Assembly: GCF_900313035.1 (NCBI RefSeq)
Contig: NZ_OMPS01000001.1
Span: forward strand, 1 to 64,000
Source of the DNA: Ruegeria sp. EL01
Lineage (GTDB): Bacteria > Pseudomonadota > Alphaproteobacteria > Rhodobacterales > Rhodobacteraceae
Reading direction: 5' to 3'
DNA length: 64,000 nt
A model generated the notes under the pieces. It saw nothing but the letters and a program-made list of their open reading frames with translations, was not told where the DNA came from and made no database searches. Made by a program: the position numbers and the translations under genes. Within the stretch, counting starts at the first letter, position 1. Each line of letters starts with the position of its first letter. Below, in pieces: positions 3,388-26,779 of the stretch.

Positions 3388-3813
3388 GTGACCGATTTGA
3401 ACCACTCTACCACTGCTTCGGAGCAAGACGCTGTCTTCTTCGCTCGTGAAAGCTTTCTCGGAGAGCTCAAGACCCTAAACCGGGATTATCCGAATACGGG
3501 TTTTGGCATCTCCCTACGCACCCACTCTGGCGAGCACTATCTGCTGGCCAATGCGCGCATGCCGTTACCAGCGGCAAAATCCGACGGGTTTCCAACCGGA
3601 CGACGCGTCGCAAGCCTGGAAAACGGCGATCGCTTTAGTTCGATCGAGGTTATGGCTGATTCCCTGGCCTATGAAACCATTTCGCCACGGGCCGAGGCCG
3701 AGATCTTGGGGAATGCGATAGAACTGATTGCCCGTATTGATACATTGACCGGCATCCCTGCCGGTGGTGTTCCACAAGAACCCCAGATCGCTGCAACGGG
3801 AACCGGAGGCTGA
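3388..3813 (+). CDS. Unrecognised small protein, first gene of the dynamin-like GTPase operon
   Basis: 141 residues from a GTG at 3388 (MTDLNHSTT...), chosen because AAGG lies eight bases upstream. A GTG nine bases earlier is the alternative. The sequence is soluble, mixed alpha/beta, with no signal peptide or membrane segment. A segment FGISLRTHSGEHYLLANARM looks like a beta-hairpin and the C-terminal third looks helical. No family is recognised. It ends two bases before the first large GTPase, whose ribosome-binding site (GGAGG) lies inside its last codons. Translation is therefore linked, and the product probably works with the GTPases. Confidence 0.75.
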   Translation: MTDLNHSTTASEQDAVFFARESFLGELKTLNRDYPNTGFGISLRTHSGEHYLLANARMPLPAAKSDGFPTGRRVASLENGDRFSSIEVMADSLAYETISPRAEAEILGNAIELIARIDTLTGIPAGGVPQEPQIAATGTGG

Positions 3814-3815
3814 TA

Positions 3816-5828
3816 ATGGCGCGCAACGACCACCTTTTATCTGTCGGTAACGAAGCGCTGGCGCCTATGACGTCAGCAATGACCTCGCTGACCGCGCAGA
3901 TAGACCAATTGACTGAGGTGGCCGATGCACGGTCCTCGGCGCGGCTGGCCACGCTTAAGACGCGGATGGAGAACTTTACCGCCAGCGTTACGATGGTTGG
4001 TCAGGTCAAGGCCGGAAAATCGTCGATTGTGAACATTCTTGCAGGTCGCCCTGGGCTGCTGCCGTCAGATGTGAACCCGTGGACGTCCGTTGTGACGACC
4101 CTGAACATCAACACGCGCACGCACGGCGATACGAAATCTAAGTTTACATTCTTTGAGCAGGAAGAATGGGACAACCTGATGGTCGGTGGTGGTCGTTTGG
4201 GCGAATTGGCCAATCGGGCCGGTGCCGACGACGAAATGGATGACATTCGTCGCCAAATTGGGGAAATGAAAGCCAAGTCCGAAGAGCGGTTGGGCAAACA
4301 TTTCGATCTGGTTCTGGGCCAGAGCCACCAGTATGAGTATTTCGACGAAGAGCTGATCCAGCGCTACGTCTGCCTCGGTGATGAGGACGATCCTGACATT
4401 GATCCCAAAACAGGGCGCTTTGCTGATGTGACCAAGTCAGCGGAACTGTATATGGACATTCCGCAATACCCGGTCGCACTAAAGCTGTGTGACACACCCG
4501 GCGTAAACGATACCTTCATGGTGCGCGAGCAGATCACGTTGCGCAGTCTCCGCGGATCTGAGGTGTGTATTGTCGTGTTGGCGGCCAGTCAGGCGCTGAC
4601 GACAATGGATATGGCGCTGATGCGGATCATCTCTCAGTTCGAAAACCGTCAAATCATTCTATTCGTGAACCGCATCGATGAATTGTCGGATCCGGTCACT
4701 CAGGTGCCCGAGATCCGTGACAGGATTCAGGACACGCTGAAACAGAACAACATCGACAAGAATGCAAGCGTTGTGTTCGGTAGCGCCTTGTGGGCCGAAG
4801 CTGCCTTAACTGGCAATCCGGATATTCTGACCGAGGAATCCCGCGAGGCCCTGAACACGTTCTACCTGGCAGCGGGCTTTGGCGATCAGGCGGCCTCGCT
4901 CGACAAGATCTGGGCCCTGTCCGGCCTTCCCGATCTGCTGCTTGCCATGAGCGAACGCATCGCCGAGGGTGCAGGCACGCGTCTGCTGGATCGGGTTCGT
5001 CATCGTGCGCGCAACATCGCTAGTCAGATCCGCGCAACAGCTGTTGCTAAAACCCTGTCCAGTGGCGAAGGCGTTGTACGCGATTTGGATGGTGTATCGC
5101 CAGAAGACGCGATCGCAACCGTTTCCGCCGAATACGAAAAGAAAGTTGCAGACCTGACAGTGGCATTGCGTGACAAGATACTGGAGCGGCTGAACTCTGC
5201 CGAAGCCAACTTTGTCAAACGCGCGACGGATTCCCTGATCTCGCATTTGGAGATGAATGGAGAGCAAGGAACCTGGCAGTATGATCCGGCCGGGCTGCGA
5301 ACCCTGCAAAAAGCGGCATATTTCAGTTTTGCGCGATCTATGCGGAAAGACGCAGGTGCGCTGTATTCCGCTGCTGCTGCAGATGTAGAGACACTGTATC
5401 ATAAGCTTCTTGGCAATCATTTGGGTGAATTCAGTATCGAAGCGCCCATTGTCCCTCGTGTTCCGCCGCCACTTGGCATTGGCCGTACCATCGCGCTTGA
5501 TCTTCAGAGCACTTGGTGGCGGCGTTGGTGGCAAAAGCGCAAGGGTTTCGAGGCGTATGCAGCGGACTACACGCGCTTGATTGCATCCGAAGCGAATTCG
5601 ATCACCAAGGATATTGAGGAAAATCAGGTCGCTGCCGTGCTGGAGAATGTTCGGGCAATTCTGGCTGATTTCATGCGCGAGCAAAAAGAAACTCTGCTGA
5701 GCATCTCGGCTTCTGCCGAGAAGGACGGAGGCCAGAATTCTGCGCTAATGGCAGGTTTACAGCAACAGAAGTCTCGGGACGACATCCTGGGCGACATCCT
5801 TAAAGATCTGAGCAACGAAGCGGCATGA
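3816..5828 (+). CDS. Dynamin-like large GTPase, long type (module A)
   Basis: 670 residues. The GTPase domain has a P-loop GQVKAGKS at 62-69, a switch-I region around PWTSVVT at 88-94, G3 DTPG at 226-229 and G4 NRID at 285-288. The KAGKS form and the large insert (about 100-215) between switch I and G3 are typical of bacterial dynamin-like proteins. The remainder is mostly helical, with a Trp/Arg-rich patch LQSTWWRRWWQKRKGF near residue 570 that could insert into or bind membrane. There is no signal peptide, so it is cytoplasmic or peripheral. It is clearly paralogous to the gene at 9005-11047. It overlaps the next GTPase by ATGA, so the two products are likely partners. Membrane remodelling is inferred from the family. 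Confidence 0.88.
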   Translation: MARNDHLLSVGNEALAPMTSAMTSLTAQIDQLTEVADARSSARLATLKTRMENFTASVTMVGQVKAGKSSIVNILAGRPGLLPSDVNPWTSVVTTLNINTRTHGDTKSKFTFFEQEEWDNLMVGGGRLGELANRAGADDEMDDIRRQIGEMKAKSEERLGKHFDLVLGQSHQYEYFDEELIQRYVCLGDEDDPDIDPKTGRFADVTKSAELYMDIPQYPVALKLCDTPGVNDTFMVREQITLRSLRGSEVCIVVLAASQALTTMDMALMRIISQFENRQIILFVNRIDELSDPVTQVPEIRDRIQDTLKQNNIDKNASVVFGSALWAEAALTGNPDILTEESREALNTFYLAAGFGDQAASLDKIWALSGLPDLLLAMSERIAEGAGTRLLDRVRHRARNIASQIRATAVAKTLSSGEGVVRDLDGVSPEDAIATVSAEYEKKVADLTVALRDKILERLNSAEANFVKRATDSLISHLEMNGEQGTWQYDPAGLRTLQKAAYFSFARSMRKDAGALYSAAAADVETLYHKLLGNHLGEFSIEAPIVPRVPPPLGIGRTIALDLQSTWWRRWWQKRKGFEAYAADYTRLIASEANSITKDIEENQVAAVLENVRAILADFMREQKETLLSISASAEKDGGQNSALMAGLQQQKSRDDILGDILKDLSNEAA

Positions 5829-7588
5829 GCGAACAAATGGCAAAAGAATCAACAACCCGCTTCATTTCGCCTAAGGCGTGGGAACGCATCGAGCAATGGT
5901 CTCGTCGCAAGCCGGTCTTCGCTCTGATGGGAGAATTCAGTGCCGGTAAATCGACGCTTATGAACTTTCTGTTGCGAACGCAGACGTTGCCAACGCAAGT
6001 CACCGCAACGCAACTGCCGCCCGTGTGGTTCAGCTGGGGCAATCAATCAGCCTATGTTAAGCGTCAGGACGGCAGCACAGAAGATATTGAACTGGATCAG
6101 CTTGAAGCGGTTGGTGTGAACGACGCGCAGTTCATCCGAATTTTCCTTGAGGCTGATATCCTTGAGGCCGTTGATCTGATCGACACGCCCGGAATTTCGG
6201 ACCCTAAGATATCGACAGATGTCTGGCAGCGCGCTGTTGGGCAGGCCAACGGTGTCTTGTGGTGTACCCATGCCACCCAAGCATGGCGAGAAACCGAGCG
6301 TGCAACGTGGGTCTCGCTGCCCGATCGGCTGCAAAACAACTCTCTGTTGCTGGTCACTCGGGCGGATGCACTGGGACAGAAAGACCGTCAAAAGGTGCTG
6401 CGTCGCGTTAATCGCGAAGCCGGCCATTTGTTCAACCGCTCGATCCTGTTCTCTGCCCGGGACGCGATTACCGCACGGGATAAAACCGGCGATGCCGAGA
6501 TGTGGTCGCGCAGCGGCGGCGGCAAAATGATCGATAGCTTCCTCGAGATTACCGAGCACATCATGGACACCCGTGCGGATCAGTTGGCACGGTACCAGAT
6601 CGACAAAAGCATGTCCGACGCGCCCAAAGTTCAACCTTTGCGCCCGGCATCAAAATCCGCCGAGCTGGAAACGGGTGCAGAAGGTACCTCGCCGTTGAAG
6701 TTGGTGAACCCTCTGACCGATGGCACAGACATTGATCAGGCAGAATCTTCAGTTGTGACCAGCTTCCCGGTGCGCCCTGCTCGGGTGGAGCGGCGCTCTG
6801 ACGATGCGGAACGGACGCGAATTGACTCGGAGGAGGCCGAGCGGCTGCGGGCGGAAATGGTGCCCGAAGCAGAGCCGGTGGCAGGACCTGCCGACAGCAA
6901 CGATGACGAGTTGCGTGCCTTCTTCAAGGATACGTCCAACGGTCCGCTTGATCTGAGCAGCATGTCCGAGTCCAACCGGGATGATGACGATCTCGACCTG
7001 CTTGATGACCCGGACTTTGATGACGACATCGAGGAAGAAACCCTCTTCGACAACGACCCCACCGAAGACGAATTGCAGGTTGAAGAGGCGGATAACTCAG
7101 AAGATCTTCTGGCTTCTCTCAACGAGTCCCTGGCGGACACAACCAAAGTCGAAAGCAAAGAACCGGAACCCGTTGAACCAGCGGAAGATCGCGGCATTGA
7201 AGTCTCGGTCTCTTCCATTACGGCCCTGATGGCTGAGCAATCGAATGACAACGTTGACGATTATGAGCCCGAACCAGAATCCAACGGGTTGATCGAGGTT
7301 GAAAGCGCACCGCAGCCCGTGGATGCCGGTGAGATCAAAGAAACCGCCGCGGGTGAAATGATTGATGTATCCGTCGATTCGATGTTGAGCGCGTCGTCTA
7401 TGTGGCAGGAAATCGTCGGCAGAGAAGACCTTCCTGAAGATGCGGATGGATTGATGAACGTCTTCAAAGCCTTTCTTGCTGAATTTGACCAGATCGCCGT
7501 CGAACACAATGCGCGACAAGTAAAGGAGTCCTTACGTCCAATCCCGACAGCCAGCGAAAACAGTGGCGCAGAATGGCATATGTTGTAA
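5825..7588 (+). CDS. Dynamin-like GTPase, short type with long acidic tail (module A)
   Basis: 587 residues. P-loop GEFSAGKS at 36-43, G3 DTPG at 120-123, and TRAD at 178-181 in place of a canonical NKxD. A striking WCTHATQAWRETERATW segment lies at 146-162. Residues from about 260 to 480 are low-complexity and very rich in Asp/Glu (for example DDDDLDLLDDPDFDDD), presumably disordered. A short predicted helical domain (about 510-575) ends the protein. The GTPase half is paralogous to the gene at 11044-12330, which shares the WCT..T.AWRETER signature, but that paralogue lacks the long acidic segment. The ATGA overlap with the preceding long GTPase implies a heteromeric pair, as in known paired bacterial dynamins. 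Confidence 0.87.
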   Translation: MSEQMAKESTTRFISPKAWERIEQWSRRKPVFALMGEFSAGKSTLMNFLLRTQTLPTQVTATQLPPVWFSWGNQSAYVKRQDGSTEDIELDQLEAVGVNDAQFIRIFLEADILEAVDLIDTPGISDPKISTDVWQRAVGQANGVLWCTHATQAWRETERATWVSLPDRLQNNSLLLVTRADALGQKDRQKVLRRVNREAGHLFNRSILFSARDAITARDKTGDAEMWSRSGGGKMIDSFLEITEHIMDTRADQLARYQIDKSMSDAPKVQPLRPASKSAELETGAEGTSPLKLVNPLTDGTDIDQAESSVVTSFPVRPARVERRSDDAERTRIDSEEAERLRAEMVPEAEPVAGPADSNDDELRAFFKDTSNGPLDLSSMSESNRDDDDLDLLDDPDFDDDIEEETLFDNDPTEDELQVEEADNSEDLLASLNESLADTTKVESKEPEPVEPAEDRGIEVSVSSITALMAEQSNDNVDDYEPEPESNGLIEVESAPQPVDAGEIKETAAGEMIDVSVDSMLSASSMWQEIVGREDLPEDADGLMNVFKAFLAEFDQIAVEHNARQVKESLRPIPTASENSGAEWHML

Positions 7589-7640
7589 TGGAATCCGAAT
7601 CAAGGTAACGGATAATTTGTAATGGAAAACAGATAGTTAT

Positions 7641-8042
7641 ATGTCGATCCAGGCCGCACTTGAATCCGCAATGGACACCATACCCGACTGTATTGCAGGC
7701 GGGTATGTTGACATGGAAACGGGTATGCTTTTGGGAACATGTCTTACTGATCAAGACAGTGCCAATGTCTTGGATGCGCTGGCGGTTGCCGTGGCGAATT
7801 TGTTCCAGGGACGTGGCGTTGCGGCTTTTGAAACGTTGTTACGGCAGGCGGGAACGGAAGACGCGGGAAATCCGGGATTTGGTGAAATCGCAGTGTTTTC
7901 GCAAGACCGGTTGAACATCTTTTTGCGAACCCAAGAATATCCGGATCACGTGGTTTGCTACATCTGTCGGCACAGCGCGAATGTCGGTTTGGCACTAACA
8001 AAGTCACATCTCAGCTTGGGGCCGGTTGCGGCCGCAGTTTGA
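7641..8042 (+). CDS. Roadblock/LC7-like small protein
   Basis: 133 residues starting MSIQAALESAMDTIPDC. The order of a helix, a GGYVDMETGMLLG beta-hairpin, a helix (VLDALAVAVANLFQG) and later strands ending in VVCYICRHSANVGLALTKSH fits the Roadblock/LC7 fold. In bacteria such proteins often regulate small GTPases (MglB acts on MglA). The assignment is by pattern only. It lies 52 bases after the short GTPase of module A and 23 bases before the next gene. A regulator or scaffold for the neighbouring GTPases is a reasonable inference. The ribosome-binding site is weak (GGAAAA). Confidence 0.7.
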   Translation: MSIQAALESAMDTIPDCIAGGYVDMETGMLLGTCLTDQDSANVLDALAVAVANLFQGRGVAAFETLLRQAGTEDAGNPGFGEIAVFSQDRLNIFLRTQEYPDHVVCYICRHSANVGLALTKSHLSLGPVAAAV

Positions 8043-8065
8043 GCGGGACCAGAGGGGGTCACGTC

Positions 8066-8938
8066 ATGATGGATACTGACATACTGGACATGCTCGAAGA
8101 TATCGGGCGGTCGTCGGTGGCAAGATTGTCGCCGGCCGTTTTGGTTTCTGGTGACGCTGCTGCGACCCGCCGCGTGGAAATTCTGCGTGTCATTCGCGGA
8201 ACCGTTCTGCCGCGCCGTCTGGAGTTCACTGCAGCAAATGGCGACTGCCTGGCGATCGAGGTTAACAGCTCGCGGGTCACAGATGTCTTCCAGGTTCGAT
8301 CAGGACCTATTCCTGATTTTGCCACCGAGGCGCGCGAAGATTTGGTTGGCAAACTGGCACAGATTGTTTCGGATATCTCCAGCGCCCCTGCCCCGTTGGA
8401 ATTGGTGTCGCTGAAACCGGATACAGCGCTTGAAGCTGATGACGTCGGCATCACACTCAGCGAAATTGAAGCCGCGTGTGAGCAGATTGAGCTGCCTTCT
8501 GAACCCATTGTGTCGGTTGTGCAGGAAACCGAAGAAGCGCCCGCTACCGTACAATCTGAAGAAGACATTGTCGAGCAGAGGGAAAGCCTGGCTCAGGACT
8601 TTTTTGACGGGGTCCACCGTTTTTCGACCGGGCGTGTTTTGATGGCAAGTGCGGATGGGGAGGCGCTGCGTTTCGAAGGGCAATGCGCGCCTGACGGAAC
8701 AATGCAACCAGATCAAAATTTGCTGGCGCGTTTCGCTGCAGATCTGGCGGGTTGGGACAACGATACAGAGACAGAACTAAACCACCCCCAACTGATCGTG
8801 ATGCGCCCTTCGGGTGGAAAAGGCGCAGGTCTGGCCGTTGTACATGACGGCGAGCAAATTGCAGTTGCTGTGCATGAAGCGCGCAAATTGGGCGCGGTTG
8901 TCAATCTTTGGAGTTCGCTTCTGGAGACGGGAAAATGA
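8066..8938 (+). CDS. Uncharacterised acidic protein between the two GTPase modules
   Basis: 290 residues from the ATG at 8066, which has a strong AGAGGGGG site seven bases upstream. Longer in-frame starts would overlap the previous gene. The N-terminal half (to about 125) is mixed alpha/beta. It is followed by a Glu-rich linker (about 140-185) and a C-terminal alpha/beta domain ending GLAVVHDGEQIAVAVHEARK and a helix. That C-terminal part may be another Roadblock-like fold, but the evidence is thin. There is no signal peptide or membrane segment. It follows the Roadblock-like gene by 23 bases. A 66-base AT-rich gap separates it from module B and could hold a promoter. Confidence 0.78.
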   Translation: MMDTDILDMLEDIGRSSVARLSPAVLVSGDAAATRRVEILRVIRGTVLPRRLEFTAANGDCLAIEVNSSRVTDVFQVRSGPIPDFATEAREDLVGKLAQIVSDISSAPAPLELVSLKPDTALEADDVGITLSEIEAACEQIELPSEPIVSVVQETEEAPATVQSEEDIVEQRESLAQDFFDGVHRFSTGRVLMASADGEALRFEGQCAPDGTMQPDQNLLARFAADLAGWDNDTETELNHPQLIVMRPSGGKGAGLAVVHDGEQIAVAVHEARKLGAVVNLWSSLLETGK

Positions 8939-9004
8939 CTCCGTCCGTAACATTTATAAATTCGAATAATTCAGTTTATTGTTTCAAGTTTCAGGATAGT
9001 AGTT

Positions 9005-11047
9005 ATGAGTGAATCTAGTCGTCGCGAGTTAATTCGCATTGCCGAAGATATGAACGAGATCAGCAACGATGAAACGCGTCAGTTTATTTCGCGTATTGTC
9101 GGTGATCTAACCAACCTTAAACCTTCGATCGCATTTGTTGGGCAAATCAAAGCCGGAAAATCCCGTTTGATAAATGGATTTACCGGTCAGGCAGAATACC
9201 TGCCATCAGACGTTAACCCGTGGACGACTGTCATCACGGATATGCATTTTGGACACCCGTCCGGGCGGACCGATGGGGCAGAGTTTCACTTCTTCGATAA
9301 TCACCAGTGGCAATCCTTGATCGTCGAAGGTGAAGAGTTGCGCAACATGTTCCCGGATGACGAGGACAGCTACAAACGCGAGATGATCGAAGAACAGGTC
9401 GAGGCGATGCAAGTCCGGGCGCGGCGGCGACTGGGCGATAGCTACGAACAATTGCTTGGCCAACACCATGATTTGGACCATCTGACGTCGGACGACCTTG
9501 CGCGGTATGTCTGCGCAGGTGATGACCCGGCCGATGACGGCGTCTTGGATCCGGGCAGTGACCGGGGTTTGTACAGCGACATCACCCGCAAGGCCGAGGT
9601 GTATTTTGACGTCGGCCATTTCCCGTTTCCATTAACCGTGACTGACACGCCCGGCGTAAACGACCCACTGCTGATCCGCGAAGAGATCTCGCGCCAGTAT
9701 CTGAAGGAATCCGACTTCTTTGTTGTCGTCCTTTCGGCACATCAGGCCCTATCACGAGCTGATCTGAAGCTGTTCAGGCTGATGCAGGCCTTGGAGCTTG
9801 GTCAGATCGTCGTTTTCATCAACCGCGTCGACGAATTAGGTGATGGGGCAGAAGACGCCACGAAAGTGCGCGCAGACGTTATGGAAGGGCTCGAAAAAGC
9901 ACTTGGGAACGCGGATATCGATGTATCGATGGGCAGTGCTCAGTGGGCACATTTCGCGCTGACCGGCGATGAGACGGGTATAAACCATGATCACGTCCTG
10001 GCTTGGCTGCGCGCCCATCCTGAACAGATGAAACAGTATCTGGACGGCGTGGAAGAGATCAAACAGGGTCCCGGCCCGATCAGTCGCGAGGCGGTCTTGC
10101 GCTTTGCGGCAATGATAGCCTCTGGTTTGCCGGATTTGCGCCGCCATGTAACACAAGCTTTGACTGATGGCCCACGTAATGAACAATTGCGGATGGCATG
10201 GCAGCATCTCAACAGTTTCGCCCGGGGCGAGCTGGAGCGGTCTCAGGCTCATCTGCGTGTGCTGGAAGATGACAACGCGGCCAATTTGGCCAGCGCAGAT
10301 GAAAACGACAAAACCCTGGCCGACCTGCGCAGTCTTGTTGCGGGCAAAACGCAAGAGATTACCCAGGACATGGACGATGTCCTGGCAAATCTGCGCGGCG
10401 TTATGGATGACACCGTGGCCGAAGCTGTTTCCGCCGTCGTTCGGGGGTCTGGCGGGCAATCGCCCTTGCTGGCCAAAGGCGGCGCAACCGAACTGAATTT
10501 CACACCCTTGCGCGAGCGGATGAGAGAACTGGTTCAAGGTGCATCCCAGGTGGTTCGGCAACGCATGCTAAGCGAACTCTATGCGATTGACATGCAAAGC
10601 AACGCCGCACTCCGAGCTCTGCCCGGCTGGCAGGAACCCGTCGACAACCGCATGAACACCAGCGCTGTGCGCTGGTTCCGTCCGGATACCACGGCACTGA
10701 CACGTGGAATTACAGTTGAATTGCGTGTAAACTGGTTATCGCGCCTGATTTCTCGCAACAGCGTCGTGTCACGCGCGGAAAAGATGATCGTGCAGGAATT
10801 CGAATTGATCGGCGACGATCTGATTGACACTGCGCGGGATGACCTGTCTGAAAGACTGACTACGGTTCTGGATCACTATCTGGCTTTGCTGGCCGGGCAT
10901 CTTGAACACAGATCCGGAACCGATGAAACAAATGCACAGGCCGAAGCGCAAGTCGCATTCGACCGGGCGCGCCGCATCGCAGATGAGCTGGAGACAGCCT
11001 TTGGCACAAACATTGCGGAAGAACGACAAGCAGAGGCTGCGGAATGA
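9005..11047 (+). CDS. Dynamin-like large GTPase, long type (module B)
   Basis: 680 residues. P-loop GQIKAGKS at 46-53, LPSDVNPWTTVIT switch-I region at 66-78, DTPG at 214-217 and NRVD at 273-276. It matches the first long GTPase throughout the GTPase domain, including the LPSDVNPWT block and the insert ending in RYVC.GDD. The C-terminal half is helical (about 395-470 likely coiled coil) and has a hydrophobic/basic stretch LRVNWLSRLISRN near 575. This lies where its paralogue has the Trp/Arg patch. It overlaps the next gene by ATGA. Upstream are 66 AT-rich bases and an AGGAT ribosome-binding site. Probably a cytoplasmic, membrane-associated partner of the following GTPase. Confidence 0.88.
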   Translation: MSESSRRELIRIAEDMNEISNDETRQFISRIVGDLTNLKPSIAFVGQIKAGKSRLINGFTGQAEYLPSDVNPWTTVITDMHFGHPSGRTDGAEFHFFDNHQWQSLIVEGEELRNMFPDDEDSYKREMIEEQVEAMQVRARRRLGDSYEQLLGQHHDLDHLTSDDLARYVCAGDDPADDGVLDPGSDRGLYSDITRKAEVYFDVGHFPFPLTVTDTPGVNDPLLIREEISRQYLKESDFFVVVLSAHQALSRADLKLFRLMQALELGQIVVFINRVDELGDGAEDATKVRADVMEGLEKALGNADIDVSMGSAQWAHFALTGDETGINHDHVLAWLRAHPEQMKQYLDGVEEIKQGPGPISREAVLRFAAMIASGLPDLRRHVTQALTDGPRNEQLRMAWQHLNSFARGELERSQAHLRVLEDDNAANLASADENDKTLADLRSLVAGKTQEITQDMDDVLANLRGVMDDTVAEAVSAVVRGSGGQSPLLAKGGATELNFTPLRERMRELVQGASQVVRQRMLSELYAIDMQSNAALRALPGWQEPVDNRMNTSAVRWFRPDTTALTRGITVELRVNWLSRLISRNSVVSRAEKMIVQEFELIGDDLIDTARDDLSERLTTVLDHYLALLAGHLEHRSGTDETNAQAEAQVAFDRARRIADELETAFGTNIAEERQAEAAE

Positions 11048-12330
11048 TTGAATTTCCCGGAACCGAAAAGGAAGTGCGTCAGCTTGAGCGCTTTCTGAAC
11101 GCGTCAGAAGACTTGCCATCGGACGCGGCTTTGGATGACATGCGCGCACGGGCTCTGGCCCATGCCGAACGTCTGTCCAATGCGGTAAATATCGGTTTCG
11201 CCGGAGAGTTTGGGGCTGGAAAGTCAAGCCTTGCCAACATGTTGGCCGGCGCAGATATCTTGCCGACCGGGCCACAACACCTGAAATTGCCACTGGTGAT
11301 TGTCGCTTATGCGGACGCACCTGAAACCACCGTGGGTTGGTGGGAAAAGGAACCCAAGACTTATTCCGGGATCGCGCTGGAAAAGGCGGCGGCGGACAAT
11401 CCTGATTTCATCTCCGTGGGTCTTAACACGCCTGCCCTTAAAGAAATCTCGTTGTTTGATTTGCCAGGCTCGGGTGCACTGGATGATACGTATAAGCAGA
11501 CTCTGGATCTGTTGAAATTCGTCGACTGTGCCATCTGGTGCACCAATGGTACCAATGCCTGGCGCGAGACTGAACGCCATCTTTGGGCCCAGGTTCCATC
11601 TAAATTGCGCGAGAACAGCCTGTTGGCGGTCACCCATTCGGACTTGCCGCCTGTCCATGATGCGCTGGATCGTGTTTTGGCCCGTTTGAACAAGGAAAAG
11701 GGCGCCATGTTCCGCACTGTTGTGCCAATCGGCACGCCAGTTGCGGTCCGCGCCATGGCACAAGAGCCCGAGCCTGATTTCAAGCTTTGGGAAACTTGCG
11801 GAGGGCAAAATCTGGCGGAACAGGTGCTCGAGGTCGCCTCAAACCGGCGCCAGTGCGACCTTGACGCCGCGCGCAAGGACCTGCAGCAGGACTTCTTGCC
11901 ATTTCTTGAAACGCTGCAGGGGCCGGAGCCCGAACAGACCGAGAGCGATGGCACGTCGATGCAAGCCACCCTTGGATCTGCATTGCCCCCGCTGAACAAC
12001 CCCATTCTTGAGGATTGGCTGGCAGCCATCGCCAGTATCTACGAGGATCTACGTGAATCCACGGATATCGAACCCGCCGCTTTTTTGCAAAGTTGTCAGG
12101 AAATTGTCGAGGATTTTGCCGAGCGCCTGGAGCAAGGCGATGAAATCGATCCCGATGCCGACTGGATTCCGGCTGAGTTCGAGAAAGCGACAGATCTGTT
12201 GCTGCTGCTACAATTCGAGAGTGGCAACGCACCCCTGAAGGATGCAATCAGCATTCTGGCACAGCTGAGTGACAACCTTGCCTGGGCCGGTAGCACCGTT
12301 CCAGAATCACAGTCCAAAACCGGAACCTGA
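11044..12330 (+). CDS. Dynamin-like GTPase, short type (module B)
   Basis: 428 residues. P-loop GEFGAGKS at 54-61, G3 DLPG at 139-142 (Leu for Thr), G4 position THSD at 197-200, and WCTNGTNAWRETERHLW at 165-181. The last features are shared with the short GTPase of module A. The C-terminal part (about 280-420) is acidic and helical but lacks the long Asp-rich region of its paralogue. A GAGG site overlaps the end of the preceding gene, and the ATGA junction makes translation coupled. This is the last gene before a 339-base gap, so it probably ends the GTPase transcription unit. Confidence 0.85.
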   Translation: MIEFPGTEKEVRQLERFLNASEDLPSDAALDDMRARALAHAERLSNAVNIGFAGEFGAGKSSLANMLAGADILPTGPQHLKLPLVIVAYADAPETTVGWWEKEPKTYSGIALEKAAADNPDFISVGLNTPALKEISLFDLPGSGALDDTYKQTLDLLKFVDCAIWCTNGTNAWRETERHLWAQVPSKLRENSLLAVTHSDLPPVHDALDRVLARLNKEKGAMFRTVVPIGTPVAVRAMAQEPEPDFKLWETCGGQNLAEQVLEVASNRRQCDLDAARKDLQQDFLPFLETLQGPEPEQTESDGTSMQATLGSALPPLNNPILEDWLAAIASIYEDLRESTDIEPAAFLQSCQEIVEDFAERLEQGDEIDPDADWIPAEFEKATDLLLLLQFESGNAPLKDAISILAQLSDNLAWAGSTVPESQSKTGT

Positions 12331-12478: not shown

Positions 12479-12500
12479 TATATGGGAGAAATACCATATA
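12479..12500. promoter_or_regulatory. AT-rich inverted repeat upstream of the kinase gene (possible operator)
   Basis: TATATGG (12479-12485) and CCATATA (12494-12500) form a perfect 7-bp inverted repeat with an 8-base spacer. It lies about 170 bases upstream of the kinase start, inside the 339-base gap 12331-12669, which otherwise shows no gene and no T-tailed terminator. A binding site or promoter element is inferred from symmetry and base composition only. Confidence 0.35.
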
Positions 12501-12669
12501 TAGAAATACGACAAAAACGATCCATAGTGAAGCCATGAGGCGGCCCCAATAAAGTCAAATTTGAAACGTCTAACCGTTCTCAAGTGTCCTGCGTTTGTTT
12601 TGGTTGTGAGTTCGTGGGTTATTTACGCAGTTATTAATGCCGCTAAACGAGTAGAACGGGCGTAAAGTA

Positions 12670-14853
12670 ATGAGCCACAATCAGGCTGTCGGTGCATCGC
12701 ACGACGAACCAAAAATCGAAGGACTGCAACCTGGCGCAAAGCTTCTGCGCGGGCAGTATGAAATTCTTCGCTTCCTCAGCAATGGTGGGTTTGGAATAAC
12801 CTACCTAGCGCGCGATAGCCTGGAACGCGACGTCGTCATCAAAGAGTGTTACCCCGGCGCCTTATGCCGTCGGAACGGCGATTTGGTCGAACCAGCCGAT
12901 TCCGCAAACAAGGACGATCTGCGCGCAATTATCGACCTTTTCATTTTGGAAGCCCGCAACCACGCGCGGTTGGTGCATCCCAATATCGTTGACGTACATC
13001 AGGTCTTTGAAGACAACGACACCGCTTACATCGCGATGGATTTGATCCGAGGGTGCGATCTGCTCGACTATGTCGAAAATCCCGAAAACGACGGCGGACC
13101 TGACTTTATTGTTCAGGTCACCGAAAAGATGCTGTCGGCGGTCTCATTCATCCATCAAAGCGGTATGCTGCATCGGGACATCTCGCCCGACAACATCCTG
13201 ATAGACGAGAATGGCGACCCTATCCTGATCGACTTTGGGGCAGCACGCGAACAGGCAGCAAATAAGTCGGTTGCACTTATGACCCTTCGCGTCATCAAGG
13301 ACGGGTATTCACCCCATGAATTCTACGTTCGCGGTGCCGAACAAGGCCCCAGCAGCGATCTCTATGTTCTGGCTGCTACCTTGTATCACGCCATCAGTGG
13401 CGAGCGCCCTATCGACGGACAAACCCGCCTGAACGCCTTCAATAACGGTCAGGATGACCCTTATCAGCCGCTTTCCGGTCGTTTCGGCGGCTACCCAGAT
13501 GGGTTCCTGGAGGCGCTGGACAAAGCGATGGAAGTGCACGCCACCGACCGTCTGGACACAGCGCTGGATTGGTTGCGAATGTTCCGCGGTCCGGGCGTGA
13601 TGTTTGACACGTTTGCCTATCGTCCCGTGTCCGTCATCGTCGGCATGGACCGGAAGGACAAAGAAGAAGAACAGGCAAGGATCAAGGCAGAAAGCGAAAA
13701 TGCCGAAGCCGTTGTAACCGCCCTGCTGGCCGGTAACGCAGATATCGCACTGGGCAACGAAGACAAGAAAGATGACGAGCCTGCAAAGTTCTCTGGCAAA
13801 GAGGACAACGCGGTTGCCGTAGATACTGTGGTTCAGAGCGGGTCAGGCGGCAACGGCAAACTGATCGCAGGCGTGGCCCTTGTGGCGTTGGCCGTTGCCG
13901 CAGGTGGTTTCTTTGTGATGTCTGGCGATAAGGCCGAACCAACCGCAGACACGACAACTGCGGCAACAGTCGCAGTCACCCAATCTTCACAATCTGAGGC
14001 GGAACAAGTGGCTTCCGAGTCAGAAACACCGGCCGCTTTGGCGCCTGAGCCAGCATCGGTCGTTGAAAACGCGCCAGAACCAGAAAGCGTTGCGGCGCAG
14101 CCTGTCGAGCAGGAACAGGCCGAAACTGCGGAAATAGCTGCCACAGAAGCAGCCTCCGCAGAATCAAAAACGACTGAGGCTGAACCTCAGGCTATCGAAC
14201 TGGCGACAGACCAAGGGCCCAAAGCCGCTCTGGATGGGTCAGTCAATCTCGCTGAAACGCAGGTCTCGTTTGCGCATTGGGATGTAGAGATCCCGTTCGA
14301 CATATCCCGTCGTCGCGCATCAACCGGCAATGTGATTGCAATCACCAGTATCGACCCCGGCGTTGATATGGCAGTCGTCGGTGAATGGGTGACCCGTGGG
14401 GCGGCGATTTTCACGTTGAATGGCAAGCCAATTCGATCGGACGCATCTTTTGCCGCGCAAGTGCTGGACAATCTCCAGGTGGATCCCGATGGCTATACGC
14501 GCGTGGCAGCTCGCTACCGTTCCCTTGGTAAAACCCGAGCGAACAATGGGCTGCTGGCGCTGCCTGTCATTCGTTCGGTAGGTCTTGAAAATGGCTACGC
14601 GTTCACCATTCGCGGAATCGGCGAAGCCGAATGGCAGACCGAGGTTTTGAGTGTTCCTGCCGAAAGCGTGGGCACGCTTCAGAAAAATGATGTCCTGCTG
14701 AGTGACGCACAAACCGGAATGGCTTTCGATGGGTCAGAGAGTTTGGATGCATTGTTGGCCGAACTTGTTTCGGAAAATCAGGCTGAGGCGCGCTTTATCG
14801 TGTTGCGAAATGGTGCCGAAGCCGCCGCGGCCATGCCATTAGCGCAGGAGTGA
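12670..14853 (+). CDS. Membrane-anchored Ser/Thr protein kinase with PDZ-like extracytoplasmic region
   Basis: 727 residues. The kinase domain spans about 30-310: Gly-rich loop NGGFGITYL at 38-46, catalytic Lys58 in VVIKE, Glu94 of helix C, HRDISPDN at 168-175 (Asp170, Asn175) and DFG at 188-190. All key residues are present, so it should be active. A charged linker with helical Glu/Lys runs (about 335-375) follows, then one membrane segment at 398-417. An Ala/Glu/Thr-rich spacer (about 425-515) leads to an ectodomain (about 525-727) whose GEWVTRGAAIFTLNGKPI segment looks PDZ-like. The topology is cytoplasmic kinase, periplasmic sensor. The FHA and PP2C genes downstream complete a phospho-signalling set. 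Likely substrates are the FHA protein and the GTPases, by inference. Confidence 0.9.
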   Translation: MSHNQAVGASHDEPKIEGLQPGAKLLRGQYEILRFLSNGGFGITYLARDSLERDVVIKECYPGALCRRNGDLVEPADSANKDDLRAIIDLFILEARNHARLVHPNIVDVHQVFEDNDTAYIAMDLIRGCDLLDYVENPENDGGPDFIVQVTEKMLSAVSFIHQSGMLHRDISPDNILIDENGDPILIDFGAAREQAANKSVALMTLRVIKDGYSPHEFYVRGAEQGPSSDLYVLAATLYHAISGERPIDGQTRLNAFNNGQDDPYQPLSGRFGGYPDGFLEALDKAMEVHATDRLDTALDWLRMFRGPGVMFDTFAYRPVSVIVGMDRKDKEEEQARIKAESENAEAVVTALLAGNADIALGNEDKKDDEPAKFSGKEDNAVAVDTVVQSGSGGNGKLIAGVALVALAVAAGGFFVMSGDKAEPTADTTTAATVAVTQSSQSEAEQVASESETPAALAPEPASVVENAPEPESVAAQPVEQEQAETAEIAATEAASAESKTTEAEPQAIELATDQGPKAALDGSVNLAETQVSFAHWDVEIPFDISRRRASTGNVIAITSIDPGVDMAVVGEWVTRGAAIFTLNGKPIRSDASFAAQVLDNLQVDPDGYTRVAARYRSLGKTRANNGLLALPVIRSVGLENGYAFTIRGIGEAEWQTEVLSVPAESVGTLQKNDVLLSDAQTGMAFDGSESLDALLAELVSENQAEARFIVLRNGAEAAAAMPLAQE

Positions 14854-14894
14854 ATGACCGGTTCAAGAAGATCTGCCAGCGTTTGTTTGCTGAG

Positions 14895-14919
14895 GGTGGC
14901 ACCCCAAGTCTAGGCCACC
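14895..14919 (+). terminator. Hairpin after the kinase gene (weak terminator or processing site)
   Basis: GGTGGC (14895-14900) pairs with GCCACC (14914-14919) in the 209-base gap between the kinase and FHA genes. No T-run follows, so termination is uncertain. Confidence 0.3.
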
Positions 14920-15062
14920 TTGGCGGGAACCGGCGCGCCGCAGAAAGCTAAGAGTTTTCTCGGTTGATCAATGTTGTAGTAGCCGCTGCGCCACCGTGCG
15001 CAGGGGTAAGTAGAAGCCCAACGGCGCAAGTTACGCGCCACCAAACTTAAGGTGTCGACACC

Positions 15063-16052
15063 ATGTTCAAATATAAAAGCCCTCTCAGCCGGCTTCTCGA
15101 AGGTGCCGGCAAAGCCCAGGATGACGGTGTTGTAGAAAGCGCAGCACCCGCTGAGGACAAGCAGGAGCCGATCGCCGATTTCAATGCCCTGCGAGCAGCC
15201 TTGGCTGGCGGAAACATGGCATCTGAAACTTACGAGGAAACGGACGAGCTGATCCCCGAAGGAAAGATGCCAGACTTTGAGGACCCCAAAGTTGACGTCG
15301 CTGAGGACGAAAAAGCCGCAGATGAAGCCATTGCGCCTGATGCCACGGTCGAAACCGTGGAAACCACGGCTGAGGTTCCTGCTGTAGAGTCTGCAGAGGG
15401 TTCGAGTGAGAACGATCAGGTCCTAACCCTCCATCTGACGGAGCACGACGCAGTCGGCGACGACGACGTTGTATCCAACGTCGAAGAGATCGCAGCGGAC
15501 ACAGCTGAGGTTGTTGTCGATATCTCGGCCCCGACGTCCGAGGCGACGCCGGAACCAGTTGAACAACCCGTGACCGAACCGGCACCGGTCGAAGACCGCC
15601 GGTCTCGTGTCAAAACAACCTTCCTTGGTTTTGAACGCGCTGACACGCATGTTCAGGATCTGATCGAAACAGCGGCACCAGTCGCAAAAACGGAAACCGC
15701 TCAGGAATCCTTTCCAGTGGGATGGTTGGTTGTGACGTCTGGCCCGGGTCGGGGTGCCAGCATCGGCTTGACAGAAGGCCTGATGCAGATTGGGCGCAAC
15801 GATGATCAGGCCATCCAACTTGATTTCGGCGACACTGGGATCTCGCGGTCCAACCACGCTGTGATCGCGTATGATCCTGAAGATCGAAAGTGTTACCTGG
15901 GCCATGGAGGTAAAGCCAATCTTGTGCGGCTGAACGGCAAACCAGTCCTGAGTACGGTTCCACTATCCAGCGGGGACCTGATCCGGATCAGCGAAACCTC
16001 TGTGCGTTTTGTTGCCTTCTGTGACGACGGTTTTGATTGGCGGGAATCCTGA
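15063..16052 (+). CDS. FHA-domain protein
   Basis: 329 residues. The long N-terminal region (about 20-180) is acidic and low-complexity, followed by a basic-aromatic patch RVKTTFLGFE near 180-190 with two threonines. The C-terminal FHA domain (about 235-318) shows IGR for the phosphothreonine-contacting Arg, ISRSNHAVI for the Ser-x-x-His element, and VRLNGKPV with the conserved Asn. FHA domains bind phosphothreonine, so this is the reader of the upstream kinase. AAGGTG serves as ribosome-binding site. It is followed after three bases by the phosphatase gene. There is no membrane segment. The TT-containing patch is a candidate kinase target, but this is inference. Confidence 0.88.
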   Translation: MFKYKSPLSRLLEGAGKAQDDGVVESAAPAEDKQEPIADFNALRAALAGGNMASETYEETDELIPEGKMPDFEDPKVDVAEDEKAADEAIAPDATVETVETTAEVPAVESAEGSSENDQVLTLHLTEHDAVGDDDVVSNVEEIAADTAEVVVDISAPTSEATPEPVEQPVTEPAPVEDRRSRVKTTFLGFERADTHVQDLIETAAPVAKTETAQESFPVGWLVVTSGPGRGASIGLTEGLMQIGRNDDQAIQLDFGDTGISRSNHAVIAYDPEDRKCYLGHGGKANLVRLNGKPVLSTVPLSSGDLIRISETSVRFVAFCDDGFDWRES

Positions 16053-16055
16053 TAG

Positions 16056-16841
16056 ATGTTGGCGACCCCGGCATATGATATTGCGCTGATCCTGGATCAG
16101 GGACAGCGCGATTCGCAGGAAGACGCGATTGCTTCGCGCGTGTTTGACGCGGCGGGTTCGGGTTATATCGTTATCGCCGATGGAATGGGTGGCCACGAAG
16201 CAGGCGAGGTTGCATCAGAGATGGTGATTTCCGCTTGGCGCGACTCTCTGGACAACGAGCTTGAAAAAGACAACTCGGCCGAGGCCACGTTGGTTGATAC
16301 GCTTCCTTTGGCGGCAATGCAGGCCAATGCGGCAATAGCAAGTCATAACGAAGAACAAGGTGATGGGTTCAACATGGGGTCCACCCTTCTGGGTGTGCTG
16401 TTACTGGATCAGCGCGTGTTTTGGATTTCGATCGGGGACAGCCCGCTTTATCTTTTCCGAAACGGCGACTTGCGCCAAATCAACGAAGATCACTCGATGG
16501 CACCGATGATCGACGCGCAAGCAGCTCAGGGGCTTCTGACAGAAGCCGAGGCGCAAGCCCATCCTGACCGGAACCAGTTGACTTCGGTCGTGATGGGCGC
16601 AGCAATCCCTCAGGTTGATTGCCCGGAAGAGCCGCTGACACTGACGCCGGAGGACCTTCTCATTTTGGGCAGCGACGGGCTGCAATATCTGAACAACACC
16701 GAGATACAAACCATCCTGAGCCACAATTCACAGGCATTGGCCCAGGACATCGCGGACTCGTTATTGCAGGCGCTGCAGGTCAAAAACGATCCGGATCAGG
16801 ACAACCTATCAATTGCAGTCGTGAAACTGAAGAGAACCTAA
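16056..16841 (+). CDS. PP2C-type Ser/Thr protein phosphatase
   Basis: 261 residues, a compact single-domain PPM phosphatase. Metal-binding motifs are complete: RDSQEDA at 18-24, ADGMGGHEAG at 41-50, a GSDGL motif near 212 and DPDQDNLSIAVV at the C-terminus. The MGSTLLGVLL and ISIGDSPLYLFR strands match the family. It removes phosphate from Ser/Thr and should reverse the action of the kinase encoded upstream. The gene starts three bases after the FHA gene, so the two are surely co-transcribed. There is no signal peptide; it acts in the cytoplasm. The set resembles the PpkA/PppA/Fha regulators of type VI secretion, but no secretion genes are nearby. Confidence 0.93.
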   Translation: MLATPAYDIALILDQGQRDSQEDAIASRVFDAAGSGYIVIADGMGGHEAGEVASEMVISAWRDSLDNELEKDNSAEATLVDTLPLAAMQANAAIASHNEEQGDGFNMGSTLLGVLLLDQRVFWISIGDSPLYLFRNGDLRQINEDHSMAPMIDAQAAQGLLTEAEAQAHPDRNQLTSVVMGAAIPQVDCPEEPLTLTPEDLLILGSDGLQYLNNTEIQTILSHNSQALAQDIADSLLQALQVKNDPDQDNLSIAVVKLKRT

Positions 16842-16862
16842 AAAGGCAAAGCAACAGTAACT

Positions 16863-18125
16863 ATGAGAAAACATCTGATCATATCCAGCCTGGCACTAGC
16901 CGCTGCTACCGGCGCGGCCTCAGCCCAGGAGGCGTGTTCGACCTATGAGATTCAGCGCGGCGACAGCCTGCGTGATCTGTCGATAAAGGTTTACGCGACC
17001 GAAGACTTCCGCATCCTCTATGACGCCAACCGGGATGTCATCGGCTCAAACCCGAACATTATTCGGGTCGGCGATGTCCTCACCATGCCCTGCCTGGAAG
17101 AGATTGGGCGCGAACCGGTTCTGGCAGACACCGAGGCAGAACGGCTTGCCGCCACAATGGCAGCGGAACTGGTGAAAGCTGCAGAAGCGCGTGCCGAAAA
17201 GGCCATCGCAGAAGCCGAAGCCCGTGTCGCCGCGGCAGAAGCCGAAGCGCAACAAGCCAGCCAAGATGCCGTAGTTGCCGCCAAGGCCGAAGCGGAAAAA
17301 GAGATCGAGGCGGCCCGTGCCGAAGGCGCTGCTCTGATCCGTGACGCTGGAGTGGCTGCGCGCCCCGAATTTGGCGACCGCCAGCTGCTGTTGATTACAA
17401 GTGGAAACTACGCGCCCTTTACGGATGAGGCGCTACCGCATCGCGGCCTGTACACACAATTGGTAGAGACCGCGATGCTACGCGCTGCACCCGAGCAGTC
17501 TTATAAGATCCAGTTCGTAAATGACTGGTCTTCGCATCTGGATCTTCTTATGCCGACGCTGGCTTTCGACGGAACGTTTCCGTGGTCGCGTCCGAATTGC
17601 GAAGCGGCCGAAACTCTATCCGAAAACGATCGTTCGCGTTGTGAAACCTACAACTTCTCGAACCCGTTCTACGAAGTTGTGGATACGTTCTTCGCGCGAA
17701 GCGGCTCGGGCTATGAACAAACTCTGACCTATGCTGACTTTGCGGGCACGACGATCTGCCGTCCCGAAGGCTGGTCTTTGTCACATATGGATGTGGTCGG
17801 CCTTTATGAACCTGCCGTTACTTTGATGCGACCGGTATCACCGGATGACTGCTTCCATGCCGTGATGGAAGGAACAGCAGATATTGTCGCGATCGAGGCT
17901 CATCTGGCGGTCGAGGCAATCGGGCGCCTGGGCTACGAACATCGCATTATCGAAAATCCAAACCTGGCGGCCATCAAGTCGCTTAACGTCATGACCCACA
18001 AAGATAATCCCGATGGGGAAGCGATCCTTGAGACGTTGAATCAGGGTTTGGCAATCATGCAGCAATCCGGCGAATGGCGCGATATCGTGTCAGCCGCCCT
18101 GCGGTATCAAATGGAAAATGGATAG
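16863..18125 (+). CDS. Periplasmic LysM + solute-binding-domain protein with coiled coil
   Basis: 420 residues. A signal peptide (about 1-21, ending ASA before QE) exports it. A LysM domain at about 27-75 (YEIQRGDSLRDLSIKVY ... RVGDVLTMP) suggests peptidoglycan binding. Residues 90-165 are an Ala/Glu heptad region, a long coiled coil. Residues 175-415 resemble a family 3 solute-binding domain with VNDWSSHLDLLMP. No ABC permease or ATPase gene is nearby, so a receptor or sensor role is more likely than transport. It is closely related to the next gene. Ligand unknown. It follows the phosphatase by 21 bases. Confidence 0.85.
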   Translation: MRKHLIISSLALAAATGAASAQEACSTYEIQRGDSLRDLSIKVYATEDFRILYDANRDVIGSNPNIIRVGDVLTMPCLEEIGREPVLADTEAERLAATMAAELVKAAEARAEKAIAEAEARVAAAEAEAQQASQDAVVAAKAEAEKEIEAARAEGAALIRDAGVAARPEFGDRQLLLITSGNYAPFTDEALPHRGLYTQLVETAMLRAAPEQSYKIQFVNDWSSHLDLLMPTLAFDGTFPWSRPNCEAAETLSENDRSRCETYNFSNPFYEVVDTFFARSGSGYEQTLTYADFAGTTICRPEGWSLSHMDVVGLYEPAVTLMRPVSPDDCFHAVMEGTADIVAIEAHLAVEAIGRLGYEHRIIENPNLAAIKSLNVMTHKDNPDGEAILETLNQGLAIMQQSGEWRDIVSAALRYQMENG

Positions 18126-18140
18126 GGCTCCAAAAAGCCC
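18125..18140 (+). other. Small hairpin between the two LysM genes
   Basis: GGGCT (18125-18129) pairs with AGCCC (18136-18140) over a six-base loop, directly after the stop of the first LysM gene. There is no T-run. It may be an mRNA-stability element rather than a terminator. Confidence 0.35.
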
Positions 18141-18169
18141 GATAAATCAAAAGTCTGGAGGAAGTGGAC

Positions 18170-19276
18170 ATGTTTGAATTCAATCTTAAGAAAGTTGTGA
18201 TGTCGGCCACCGCCGTCACCGCTTTGAGCGCCGGTGCCGCCGCTGCTCAGGAAGCTTGTACTAACTATACTGTTGCAGATGGTGACACGATGGCCACGAT
18301 CGCCATCGCGGCCTATGGCTCATCGAACTATCAGCCGATCTTCAACGCCAACCGGAACGTGATCACGAACCCCGGCGCGCTTGAACCGGGCTTGGTTCTG
18401 GCCTTGCCTTGTGAAGATGGCAGCCTGCCCAACGGCCAAAGCGCCCAGGATCTCATCGCGGCAGAAGAACAGCGCGCGGCAAGCGTCAAACGCTCGAATG
18501 TCTACGCCCCGCCGATCAAGATGGTGGCTGGCAACGGATGGGAACCGTTTACAAGTGAAGCGTTGGGCGGTGGCGGCATCATGACCCGTCTGGCGACCAC
18601 CAGTCTTCAGCGTGCTGGCAACAGCCGTGACTACTCTGTCAGCTTTGTAGATGACTGGAGCTCGCATTTGGATACTCTCTTGCCACTTGGCGCGTTTGAT
18701 ATCTCAATTGCCTGGACCGTGCCGGATTGTACCAACCGCACCTATGAATGGTCTGCGGAAACCGAAGCCCGGTGTACCCAGTTTGTCGCTTCCGTTCCGG
18801 TCTATGATATCGTTGGTGGCTTCTTCACCCTGCCGGAAAGCGAATACGCAAAGGCGACAACCTTCAAAGATCTAGAAGGCTCGACCCTTTGTCGTATGGC
18901 GGGTTGGAGCATGGTGGTGCTGGAAGAAGTCGGCCTGAACCGCGAAAACACAACTGTGGTTCAGCCTAATTCAGCGCGCGAGTGCCTTGATGCCGTTCTG
19001 ACCGGCACCGCTGATGTTGCTTCGTTCGAAGTTGACCTGTTCGCGGCGACCATGAAAGAGATGGGCTTGACCTCAGCCGACCTTACCGAAAACCCATATG
19101 TCTCGACTTTGTCTTCAATGAGCTTCCTTGCCCATCGGACCAACCCGTTTGCGCGTGAGTATATTGCGATGATGAACAAGGGTCTGATCGAAATGCGCGA
19201 ATCCGGCGAATGGTACGCGATCATCTCGGACACCCTGCGCGAGCAGAACGAAAAGTTGAACGCAGCTTCGAACTGA
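18170..19276 (+). CDS. Periplasmic LysM + solute-binding-domain protein, second copy
   Basis: 368 residues from the ATG at 18170, which has a GGAGG site eight bases upstream. The start six bases earlier is less well placed. Signal peptide about 1-27 (ending AAA before QEAC). LysM domain about 32-80 (YTVADGDTMATIAIAAY ... LVLALPC). Solute-binding-like domain about 115-360. It shares DWSSHLDTLLP, GTADV and SGEWYAIISDTL with the preceding protein, but lacks its coiled-coil spacer. So these are tandem paralogues of different reach from the cell wall. It is the last gene of the locus, closed by a strong terminator. Ligand unknown; a signal input for the kinase ectodomain is possible. Confidence 0.85.
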   Translation: MFEFNLKKVVMSATAVTALSAGAAAAQEACTNYTVADGDTMATIAIAAYGSSNYQPIFNANRNVITNPGALEPGLVLALPCEDGSLPNGQSAQDLIAAEEQRAASVKRSNVYAPPIKMVAGNGWEPFTSEALGGGGIMTRLATTSLQRAGNSRDYSVSFVDDWSSHLDTLLPLGAFDISIAWTVPDCTNRTYEWSAETEARCTQFVASVPVYDIVGGFFTLPESEYAKATTFKDLEGSTLCRMAGWSMVVLEEVGLNRENTTVVQPNSARECLDAVLTGTADVASFEVDLFAATMKEMGLTSADLTENPYVSTLSSMSFLAHRTNPFAREYIAMMNKGLIEMRESGEWYAIISDTLREQNEKLNAASN

Positions 19277-19299
19277 TCCCTCGGTTCAGCTGATAGACT

Positions 19300-20183: not shown

Positions 20184-20187
20184 GCGA

Positions 20188-26772: not shown

Positions 26773-26779
26773 TCACCGA

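Follow-up and report, generated by a model that had tools for sequence, protein, structure and literature searches.

A conserved and apparently undescribed gene module of paired dynamin-like GTPases, Roadblock-fold proteins, and a kinase/FHA/PP2C trio in Rhodobacteraceae

Introduction

The present analysis concerns a run of twelve plus-strand genes at positions 3388–19276 of a 64,000-nucleotide stretch from Ruegeria sp. EL01 (contig NZ_OMPS01000001.1, positions 1 to 64,000; hereafter the window). By open frames and translations, the run encodes two pairs of dynamin-like GTPases (G1/G2 and G3/G4), two proteins of predicted Roadblock fold (RB and C), a Ser/Thr kinase, an FHA protein, a PP2C-type phosphatase, two LysM/solute-binding-like proteins (LysM1 and LysM2), and a small protein, A0. 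A first-pass annotation of the same letters had proposed a possible undescribed system of eleven same-strand genes; the shared strand holds, and the number is corrected to twelve. Among described systems, the threonine phosphorylation pathway of the type VI secretion system (T6SS; PpkA/Fha/PppA) reportedly combines a membrane Ser/Thr kinase, an FHA reader, and a PP2C eraser. The same three kinds of protein stand here in one gene run, but the locus differs from that pathway in that VipB is not found, dynamins are neighbors, and likely LysM/solute-binding sensors are present. LeoABC of enterotoxigenic E. coli is said to hold several bacterial dynamins in one cluster; the likeness lies in the clustered dynamins and in a match of G1 to the LeoA model (residues 222–648, E 2.4e-10), whereas the matches of the module to Leo models are far weaker than those within its own family, and to our knowledge neither a kinase trio nor Roadblock proteins form part of LeoABC.

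MglB and other Roadblock/LC7 regulators share the fold predicted for RB and for the C-terminal part of C; they differ in that the module genes come without a small GTPase, C has an extra N-terminal part, and both proteins are too distant for Pfam. Bacterial dynamins are described as mostly paired in operons, and the Cj-DLP1/2 tetramer of Campylobacter jejuni (5OWV), in which Cj-DLP1 depends on a 119-residue assembly domain at its N-terminus, tethers liposomes (PMC6104087); the words "kinase" and "roadblock" are absent from the main text of that paper. The window shares with Cj-DLP1/Cj-DLP2 the side-by-side arrangement of a gene for each chain type, in G1/G2 and again in G3/G4, but it differs by the presence of two pairs, by the lack of room for the 119-residue N-terminal domain, and by the addition of a kinase trio, Roadblock proteins, and sensors. 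The run is a real, conserved, and apparently undescribed module, in which known parts occur in a new combination. As the first-pass annotation had supposed, no published description of this gene combination was found in the open-licence literature, as judged by titles and the starts of abstracts.

Distribution and Linkage of the Module

The conserved unit consists of the kinase, FHA protein, PP2C, G1, G2, RB, and C. Its two halves, the dynamins and the trio, are well supported as parts of one system by their linkage, by the variety of orders in which they are linked, and by their co-occurrence. A profile of G1 matched 48 of 198 Rhodobacteraceae genomes (47 of 197 genera). In a class-wide sample there were 2 matches among 385 genomes, namely the Ruegeria genome itself and one of the same family, and in an order-wide sample 97 among 292, with only Rhodobacteraceae among the matches listed; since only a small number of candidates in each genome is scored at this stage, remote forms of G1 may be missed. 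For linkage, the G1 loci were fetched as stretches of up to 20 kb (30 kb for the window and L041), and their six-frame open frames were searched with profiles. In 36 of the 48 family genomes, a trio gene shares a fetched stretch with a G1/G3-type dynamin; RB and C each do so in 39. Eighty named loci (the best 80 of 530) were also drawn on, some of which repeat sampled genomes (for example L145/L072, L094/L032, L162/L069, and L163/L079); these, as well as G448, which was fetched from the class sample, stand outside the count of 36.

Presence across the family is likewise strongly associated: G1 and the trio PP2C occur together in 39 genomes, G1 alone in 9, PP2C alone in 4, and neither in 146 (Fisher p 5e-28, ancestry uncorrected). 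The PP2C cut of 139 bits was placed by eye at the gap between 139.7 and 107.3 among the best hits per genome, with G008 (107 bits) and weaker hits counted as lacking the gene. The genome lists behind the co-occurrence and linkage counts were compiled by hand, and all counts include the Ruegeria genome itself. The first-pass annotation had added that the GTPase and kinase blocks would be separate systems if rarely adjacent in other genomes; their linkage in 36 of the 48 G1-bearing genomes supports a single system. Its view of all eleven genes as the conserved unit does not stand, because the LysM proteins, like the G3/G4 pair, are features of one branch.

The linkage outlasts rearrangement, with at least five different gene orders in which the trio lies upstream or downstream of the dynamins, or divergent or convergent relative to them. 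The layout met most frequently in the sample runs kinase, FHA, PP2C, X4, G1, G2, RB, C, where X4 denotes the protein ahead of G1; in the branch of the window, the order is A0, G1, G2, RB, C, G3, G4, kinase, FHA, PP2C, LysM1, LysM2. Other arrangements include a divergent one in Actibacterium (L145), convergent ones in Defluviimonas (L147, L154) and on a Leisingera plasmid (L195), and, in Roseovarius aestuarii (L164), a trio with LysM upstream of G1. By profile, two Leisingera plasmids carry the module, each with a gene order of its own; on one of them, a 72-kb plasmid of Leisingera sp. S132, the convergent module with LysM proteins spans 8854–19791 of the fetched stretch, and the annotated kinase runs past the stretch end.

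A tree of G1 with 66 rows, including 18 manually selected named loci, places the 13 LysM-labelled rows in one branch (100/100) along with two rows labelled "trio" and one labelled "alone", while the kinase-first layout falls mostly in the other half. The rows L101, L128, L129, L130, and L133 bear the LysM label by kinship, their stretches ending before that gene.

Dynamin Pairs

Each of the four GTPases matches Dynamin_N above the Pfam cut-off (E 1.5e-9 to 3.7e-13). G1 (3816..5828, plus strand, as for all genes below; Dynamin_N 2e-11) and G3 (9005..11047; 3.7e-13; 34% to G1) have 5owv_A as their top PDB match by sequence, with E 9.7e-13 for G3 and agreement from the G1 profile. Their partners, G2 (5825..7588; 2.3e-10; with a long acidic C-terminal part) and G4 (11044..12330; 1.5e-9), have 5owv_C as theirs (E 3.2e-12 and 3.2e-10, respectively; 5owv_A scores 0.055 with G4). 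Chain A of 5owv (732 residues) is taken as DLP1 by its longer N-terminus. Both pairs consist of two adjacent genes, each nearest to a different chain, and are assigned by sequence to the Cj-DLP1/2 type, gene for gene. Within each pair the genes overlap by 4 bases, which is consistent with co-production of G1 with G2 and of G3 with G4.

The motifs of the GTPases are largely intact, as are those of the kinase, FHA protein, and phosphatase given below. With near-copies included, the P-loop, DxPG, and [NT][KR]xD motifs are each present in all 130 G1-type and all 60 G3-type proteins. A second dynamin-like gene with a P-loop follows the G1-type gene in 128 of 130 cases, and this partner keeps the three motifs in 128, 124, and 117 of 128, respectively. 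X4 of the commoner branch has the P-loop in 26 of 36 members and DxPG in 2 of 36, so that it is not called an active GTPase; the G2, G4, and X4 profiles recruit one another, and these labels were assigned by position. W567, W568, and W571 of G1 are invariant across a 30-row alignment, which is only suggestive of a membrane-binding tip, and a hydropathy scan of G1 gave one marginal hydrophobic stretch (1.73) within the GTPase domain. On a plasmid of Rhodobacter sp. CZR27 (L194, 817–7665), four dynamins stand in a row as two G1-type genes, each followed by its partner, and no trio was seen in the 14.8 kb.

Roadblock-Fold Proteins

RB (7641..8042) is a stand-alone protein, whereas C (about 8066..8938, start codon inferred) joins an N-terminal part to a C-terminal Roadblock domain at residues 166–290. 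The AlphaFold2 model of RB (pLDDT 85.6, pTM 0.79) superimposes on MglB with Z 15.8 and rmsd 1.9 over 118 aligned residues and gives a Foldseek match to 3kye (2.3e-7). In the model of C (pLDDT 86.3, pTM 0.57), residues 166–290 align with MglB at Z 10.2 and rmsd 3.4 over 114 residues. The Roadblock/LC7 fold is thereby confirmed, at the level of predicted structure, for RB and the C-terminal part of C. The single Roadblock-like protein of the first-pass annotation is upheld by the predicted fold of RB, but the count is too low, given the second domain in C. By sequence, the Pfam Roadblock model found no match among 30 RB sequences up to E 1 and none for C, and a PDB search with C returned nothing useful. 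A Pfam identity for RB was accordingly discarded and its identity settled by fold; against the PDB, the RB profile gave LAMTOR4 at E 0.16–0.42 and one unrelated chain at 0.8.

Kinase, FHA, and PP2C Trio and LysM Proteins

The kinase gene (12670..14853) encodes a Ser/Thr kinase (Pkinase 2.4e-27) with a single strong hydrophobic stretch (2.52) near residues 396–420 in a hydropathy scan, predicted as a membrane helix and followed by about 300 residues that are presumably periplasmic. It is followed by the genes for the FHA protein, with a long acidic N-terminal part (15063..16052; Pfam FHA 2.8e-8), and the PP2C-type phosphatase (16056..16841; PP2C_2 3.4e-13). The first-pass calls of paired GTPases, a transmembrane Ser/Thr kinase, an FHA protein, and a PP2C are all confirmed by these Pfam matches and, for the membrane span, by the hydrophobic stretch. 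In nine aligned kinases, K58, HRD 168–170, and DFG 188–190 are invariant. Among members above 380 (kinase), 150 (FHA), and 300 bits (PP2C), the kinase motifs HRDxxxxN, DFG, and [VI]IKE were found in 108, 109, and 101 of 109, the FHA motifs SR-H and IGR in 66 and 61 of 66, and the PP2C motifs DGxGG, GDS, SDG, and the last Asp motif in 58, 59, 56, and 47 of 59, respectively.

LysM1 (16863..18125) and LysM2 (18164..19276) were read by eye as LysM joined to a family-3 solute-binding-like part, each with a signal-peptide-like start, and they are likely wall-binding. The scores lie under the curated cut-offs: NCBIfam LysM gives E 3.9e-5 for LysM1 and 8.1e-10 for LysM2, SBP_bac_3 gives 2.1e-4 and 0.21, respectively, and Pfam LysM gives 0.04 for LysM2 and nothing for LysM1. 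The earlier description of two periplasmic LysM/solute-binding proteins keeps its support from the signal-peptide-like starts and these matches, at scores that stay below threshold. On the Leisingera plasmid, two proteins of this make-up lie between the FHA and kinase genes, one with Pfam LysM at 2.7e-7 and the other with none, and in further genera LysM/solute-binding proteins adjoin PP2C or FHA.

Two other loci of the Ruegeria genome hold related genes. One 20-kb stretch (L172, G000:C36:22000–41999; genes at 1463–10416) carries another kinase/FHA/PP2C trio, accompanied by one PilJ-domain protein and by two that combine binding-protein and OmpA domains, and no dynamin was found within that 20 kb. 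The other (L173, G000:C48:4500–24499; genes at 7507–16780) carries a VWA-FHA protein, a PP2C, a kinase-like frame, a trypsin-FHA protein, and an FGE-sulfatase-domain protein; FHA, PP2C, and kinase matches in a run of this kind recur in L174 and partly in L185.

Proposed Mechanism

The activation of bacterial dynamin pairs is, in our judgment, largely an open question, and it becomes directly testable, in marine bacteria that are easy to grow, through a conserved module in which dynamins come together with a dedicated kinase, reader, and phosphatase, with Roadblock proteins, and, in one branch, with likely wall-anchored sensors. We tentatively propose, at slightly less than an even chance for the account as a whole, that envelope-sensing phosphorylation controls membrane tethering or repair by the dynamin pairs, with the Roadblock proteins as regulators. 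In this account, G1/G2, and in the branch of the window also G3/G4, would form heterotypic dynamin complexes on the inner membrane that tether, seal, or remodel it. On the GTPases, RB and the C-terminal domain of C would serve as a scaffold or as a GTPase regulator, in the manner of MglB on MglA. The LysM/solute-binding proteins, placed on periplasmic peptidoglycan, would signal the condition of the wall to the kinase through its outer part; the kinase may phosphorylate the FHA protein, the GTPases, or both; the FHA domain would then read the phospho-mark and recruit the complex, and PP2C would reset it. The analysis establishes the gene identities, the motifs, the linkage and co-occurrence, the predicted Roadblock folds, and the match to Cj-DLP1/2; we infer the physical complex, the substrates, the direction of signalling, and the membrane-repair output. 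Envelope sensing is based mainly on the repeated position of a likely wall-binding binding protein next to the trio (in L172, on the Leisingera plasmid, and in the module), and DynA of B. subtilis is described as a precedent for membrane surveillance and delayed phage lysis (PMC8844932). The stronger version, in which a phospho-relay of the Ser/Thr type, equipped with peptidoglycan-anchored sensors, gates heterotypic dynamin complexes directly via Roadblock-domain regulators so that membranes are fused, tethered, or sealed on demand, is rather doubtful; if true, it would be the bacterial counterpart of signal-controlled mitofusin or Ragulator-type GTPase regulation.

Several observations weigh against the envelope-sensing account. 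Neither G1 nor G3 has room for the roughly 119-residue assembly domain at the N-terminus: 61 and 45 residues, respectively, precede the P-loop (at 62–69 in G1 and 46–53 in G3), and the best stretch of the G1 profile begins at position 8 against chain residue 125 of 5owv_A. The dynamin pairs here must therefore assemble differently, and the Roadblock proteins may replace the missing domain as a scaffold. No small GTPase of the MglA kind is found among the module genes, so a GTPase-activating role of the Roadblock proteins would follow by analogy only. Five of the nine aligned kinases stop short of a membrane helix and an outer part, and no LysM proteins are seen in the stretches of the commoner branch; hence, the wall-sensing half is not general. 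PDB sequence searches with the kinase outer part and with LysM1 returned no match. Twelve of the 48 genomes (G003, G004, G015, G019, G022, G051, G054, G074, G147, G153, G159, and G168) have G1-type genes with no trio gene in the stretch; several of these stretches end at contig ends, the trio lies elsewhere in G003 and G168, and in G147 a dynamin-like gene adjoins FHA and PP2C on a small contig (L189). Conversely, the trio occurs with no dynamins nearby in L172, L176, L177, L182, and L183. Finally, the link of the module to mreB, considered below, is a single event, since the five loci that show it form one clade.

Alternative Explanations

An anti-phage or protective function, in which the dynamins hold the membrane or trigger a response on infection while the kinase trio serves as the alarm, is unlikely, although it agrees with the occurrence of the module in about a quarter of the family genomes (48 of 198), its carriage on plasmids, its varied genomic places, and the tRNA genes near several copies. 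The capacity of DynA to delay phage lysis in B. subtilis (PMC8844932) keeps a protective role against phage among the candidates. PADLOC, which covered ten of the twelve module proteins (all but LysM1 and LysM2), returned single-protein matches and no full system: beside the LeoA match of G1, the other GTPases match LeoA/LeoBC more weakly, and the kinase hits the PD-T4-6 kinase model with residues 24–300 (E 5.6e-41) and also MAD6. However, the PD-T4-6 and MAD6 matches fall in the kinase domain, a part that would be expected in many Ser/Thr kinases of bacteria. The annotated flanks, to which PADLOC was not applied, are metabolic, transport, or regulatory by product name, and the tRNA-Leu neighbor, shared by 41 of 45 Ruegeria loci, resembles that of a resident gene set.

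A role in cell shape or elongation, exerted together with MreB and the Rod complex, is quite unlikely. It draws on L046, L051, L052, and L053, where mreB, mreC, a small MreD-like frame, PBP2, and rodA lie downstream of C on the same strand, and on L054, where mreB lies past C and is followed by the contig end; the Pfam scan of the mre-region genes was made on L051, where the MreD-like frame gave no match. In the G1 tree these five loci group as a single clade (100/100, one change), and MreB was not found in the stretches, some of them cut short, of the remaining 29 of the 34 loci with this layout. A general link to MreB was therefore rejected (5 of 34 loci), and the mreB link is a lead, not a rule.

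It is improbable that the dynamins and the trio are two independent systems, neighbors by chance or by shared mobility. The twelve genomes with no trio gene near G1, and the trios that stand alone or with other sensors, would fit such a separation, but the co-occurrence of G1 with PP2C and the linkage in at least five gene orders speak against it.

Displaced T6SS regulators of the PpkA, Fha, and PppA kind, which the trio recalls by its kinase, FHA, and PP2C found together by Pfam, are hardly credible and are disfavored for this genome, given that VipB (PF05943; other T6SS genes were outside the search) was not found in it or in G043, that G1 and VipB show no association across the 198 genomes (both 14, G1 only 34, VipB only 30, neither 120; p 0.23), and that PP2Cs on VipB contigs match the PP2C of the window far more weakly (E about 1e-11 to 1e-21 versus below 1e-40), in line with the first-pass remark that the trio resembles T6SS regulators although no secretion gene is present.

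Ends and Surroundings of the Gene Run

The run opens with A0 (3388..3813, 141 aa, in an open frame from 3379), for which a Pfam scan matched no family and a profile found matches in Ruegeria, Aliiroseovarius, and Roseovarius loci; the start codon of G1 lies 2 bases past its stop. Gaps of about 340 bases before the kinase gene and about 210 before the FHA gene leave room for internal promoters, so that a single transcript is not established. A promoter scan was set aside, having returned five sites against 8.8 in shuffled sequences. Past the last gene lies an intrinsic-terminator-like hairpin (19300..19322, plus strand; 10 pairs, 8 of them G-C, then TTTTT), and a hairpin of like form, with partly different letters, stands 3' of LysM2 in Ruegeria sp. 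THAF33. As terminator-like sites in the region number 18 against 19.6 in shuffles, its support comes from place and recurrence. Ruegeria sp. THAF33 has the same twelve-gene run on an 811-kb replicon, by annotation and profiles, so that the run is no reading artefact. Named relatives place the window in Ruegeria, G1 standing at 98% to that of an uncultured Ruegeria.

Just upstream of the module, a tRNA-Leu gene lies on the minus strand (2423–2507). Of the 45 loci titled Ruegeria, 41 have a tRNA-Leu about 0.2–0.8 kb upstream (the exceptions being L095, L111, L131, and the second copy L166), and the six titled Aliiroseovarius have a tRNA-Pro about 1 kb upstream. Conserved flanks were rejected as a functional hint, as no flanking family, with the mre and u1–u3 genes excluded from the count as queries, reached beyond 8 of 34 loci or kept a fixed place. 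Downstream in the window, 19326–30602 holds genes of polysaccharide type, namely for a deacetylase, two carbamoyltransferases, a PMT-like protein, a glycosyltransferase, a polysaccharide-synthesis membrane protein, and a sulfotransferase, and in THAF33 other genes follow the module, except for one glycosyltransferase.

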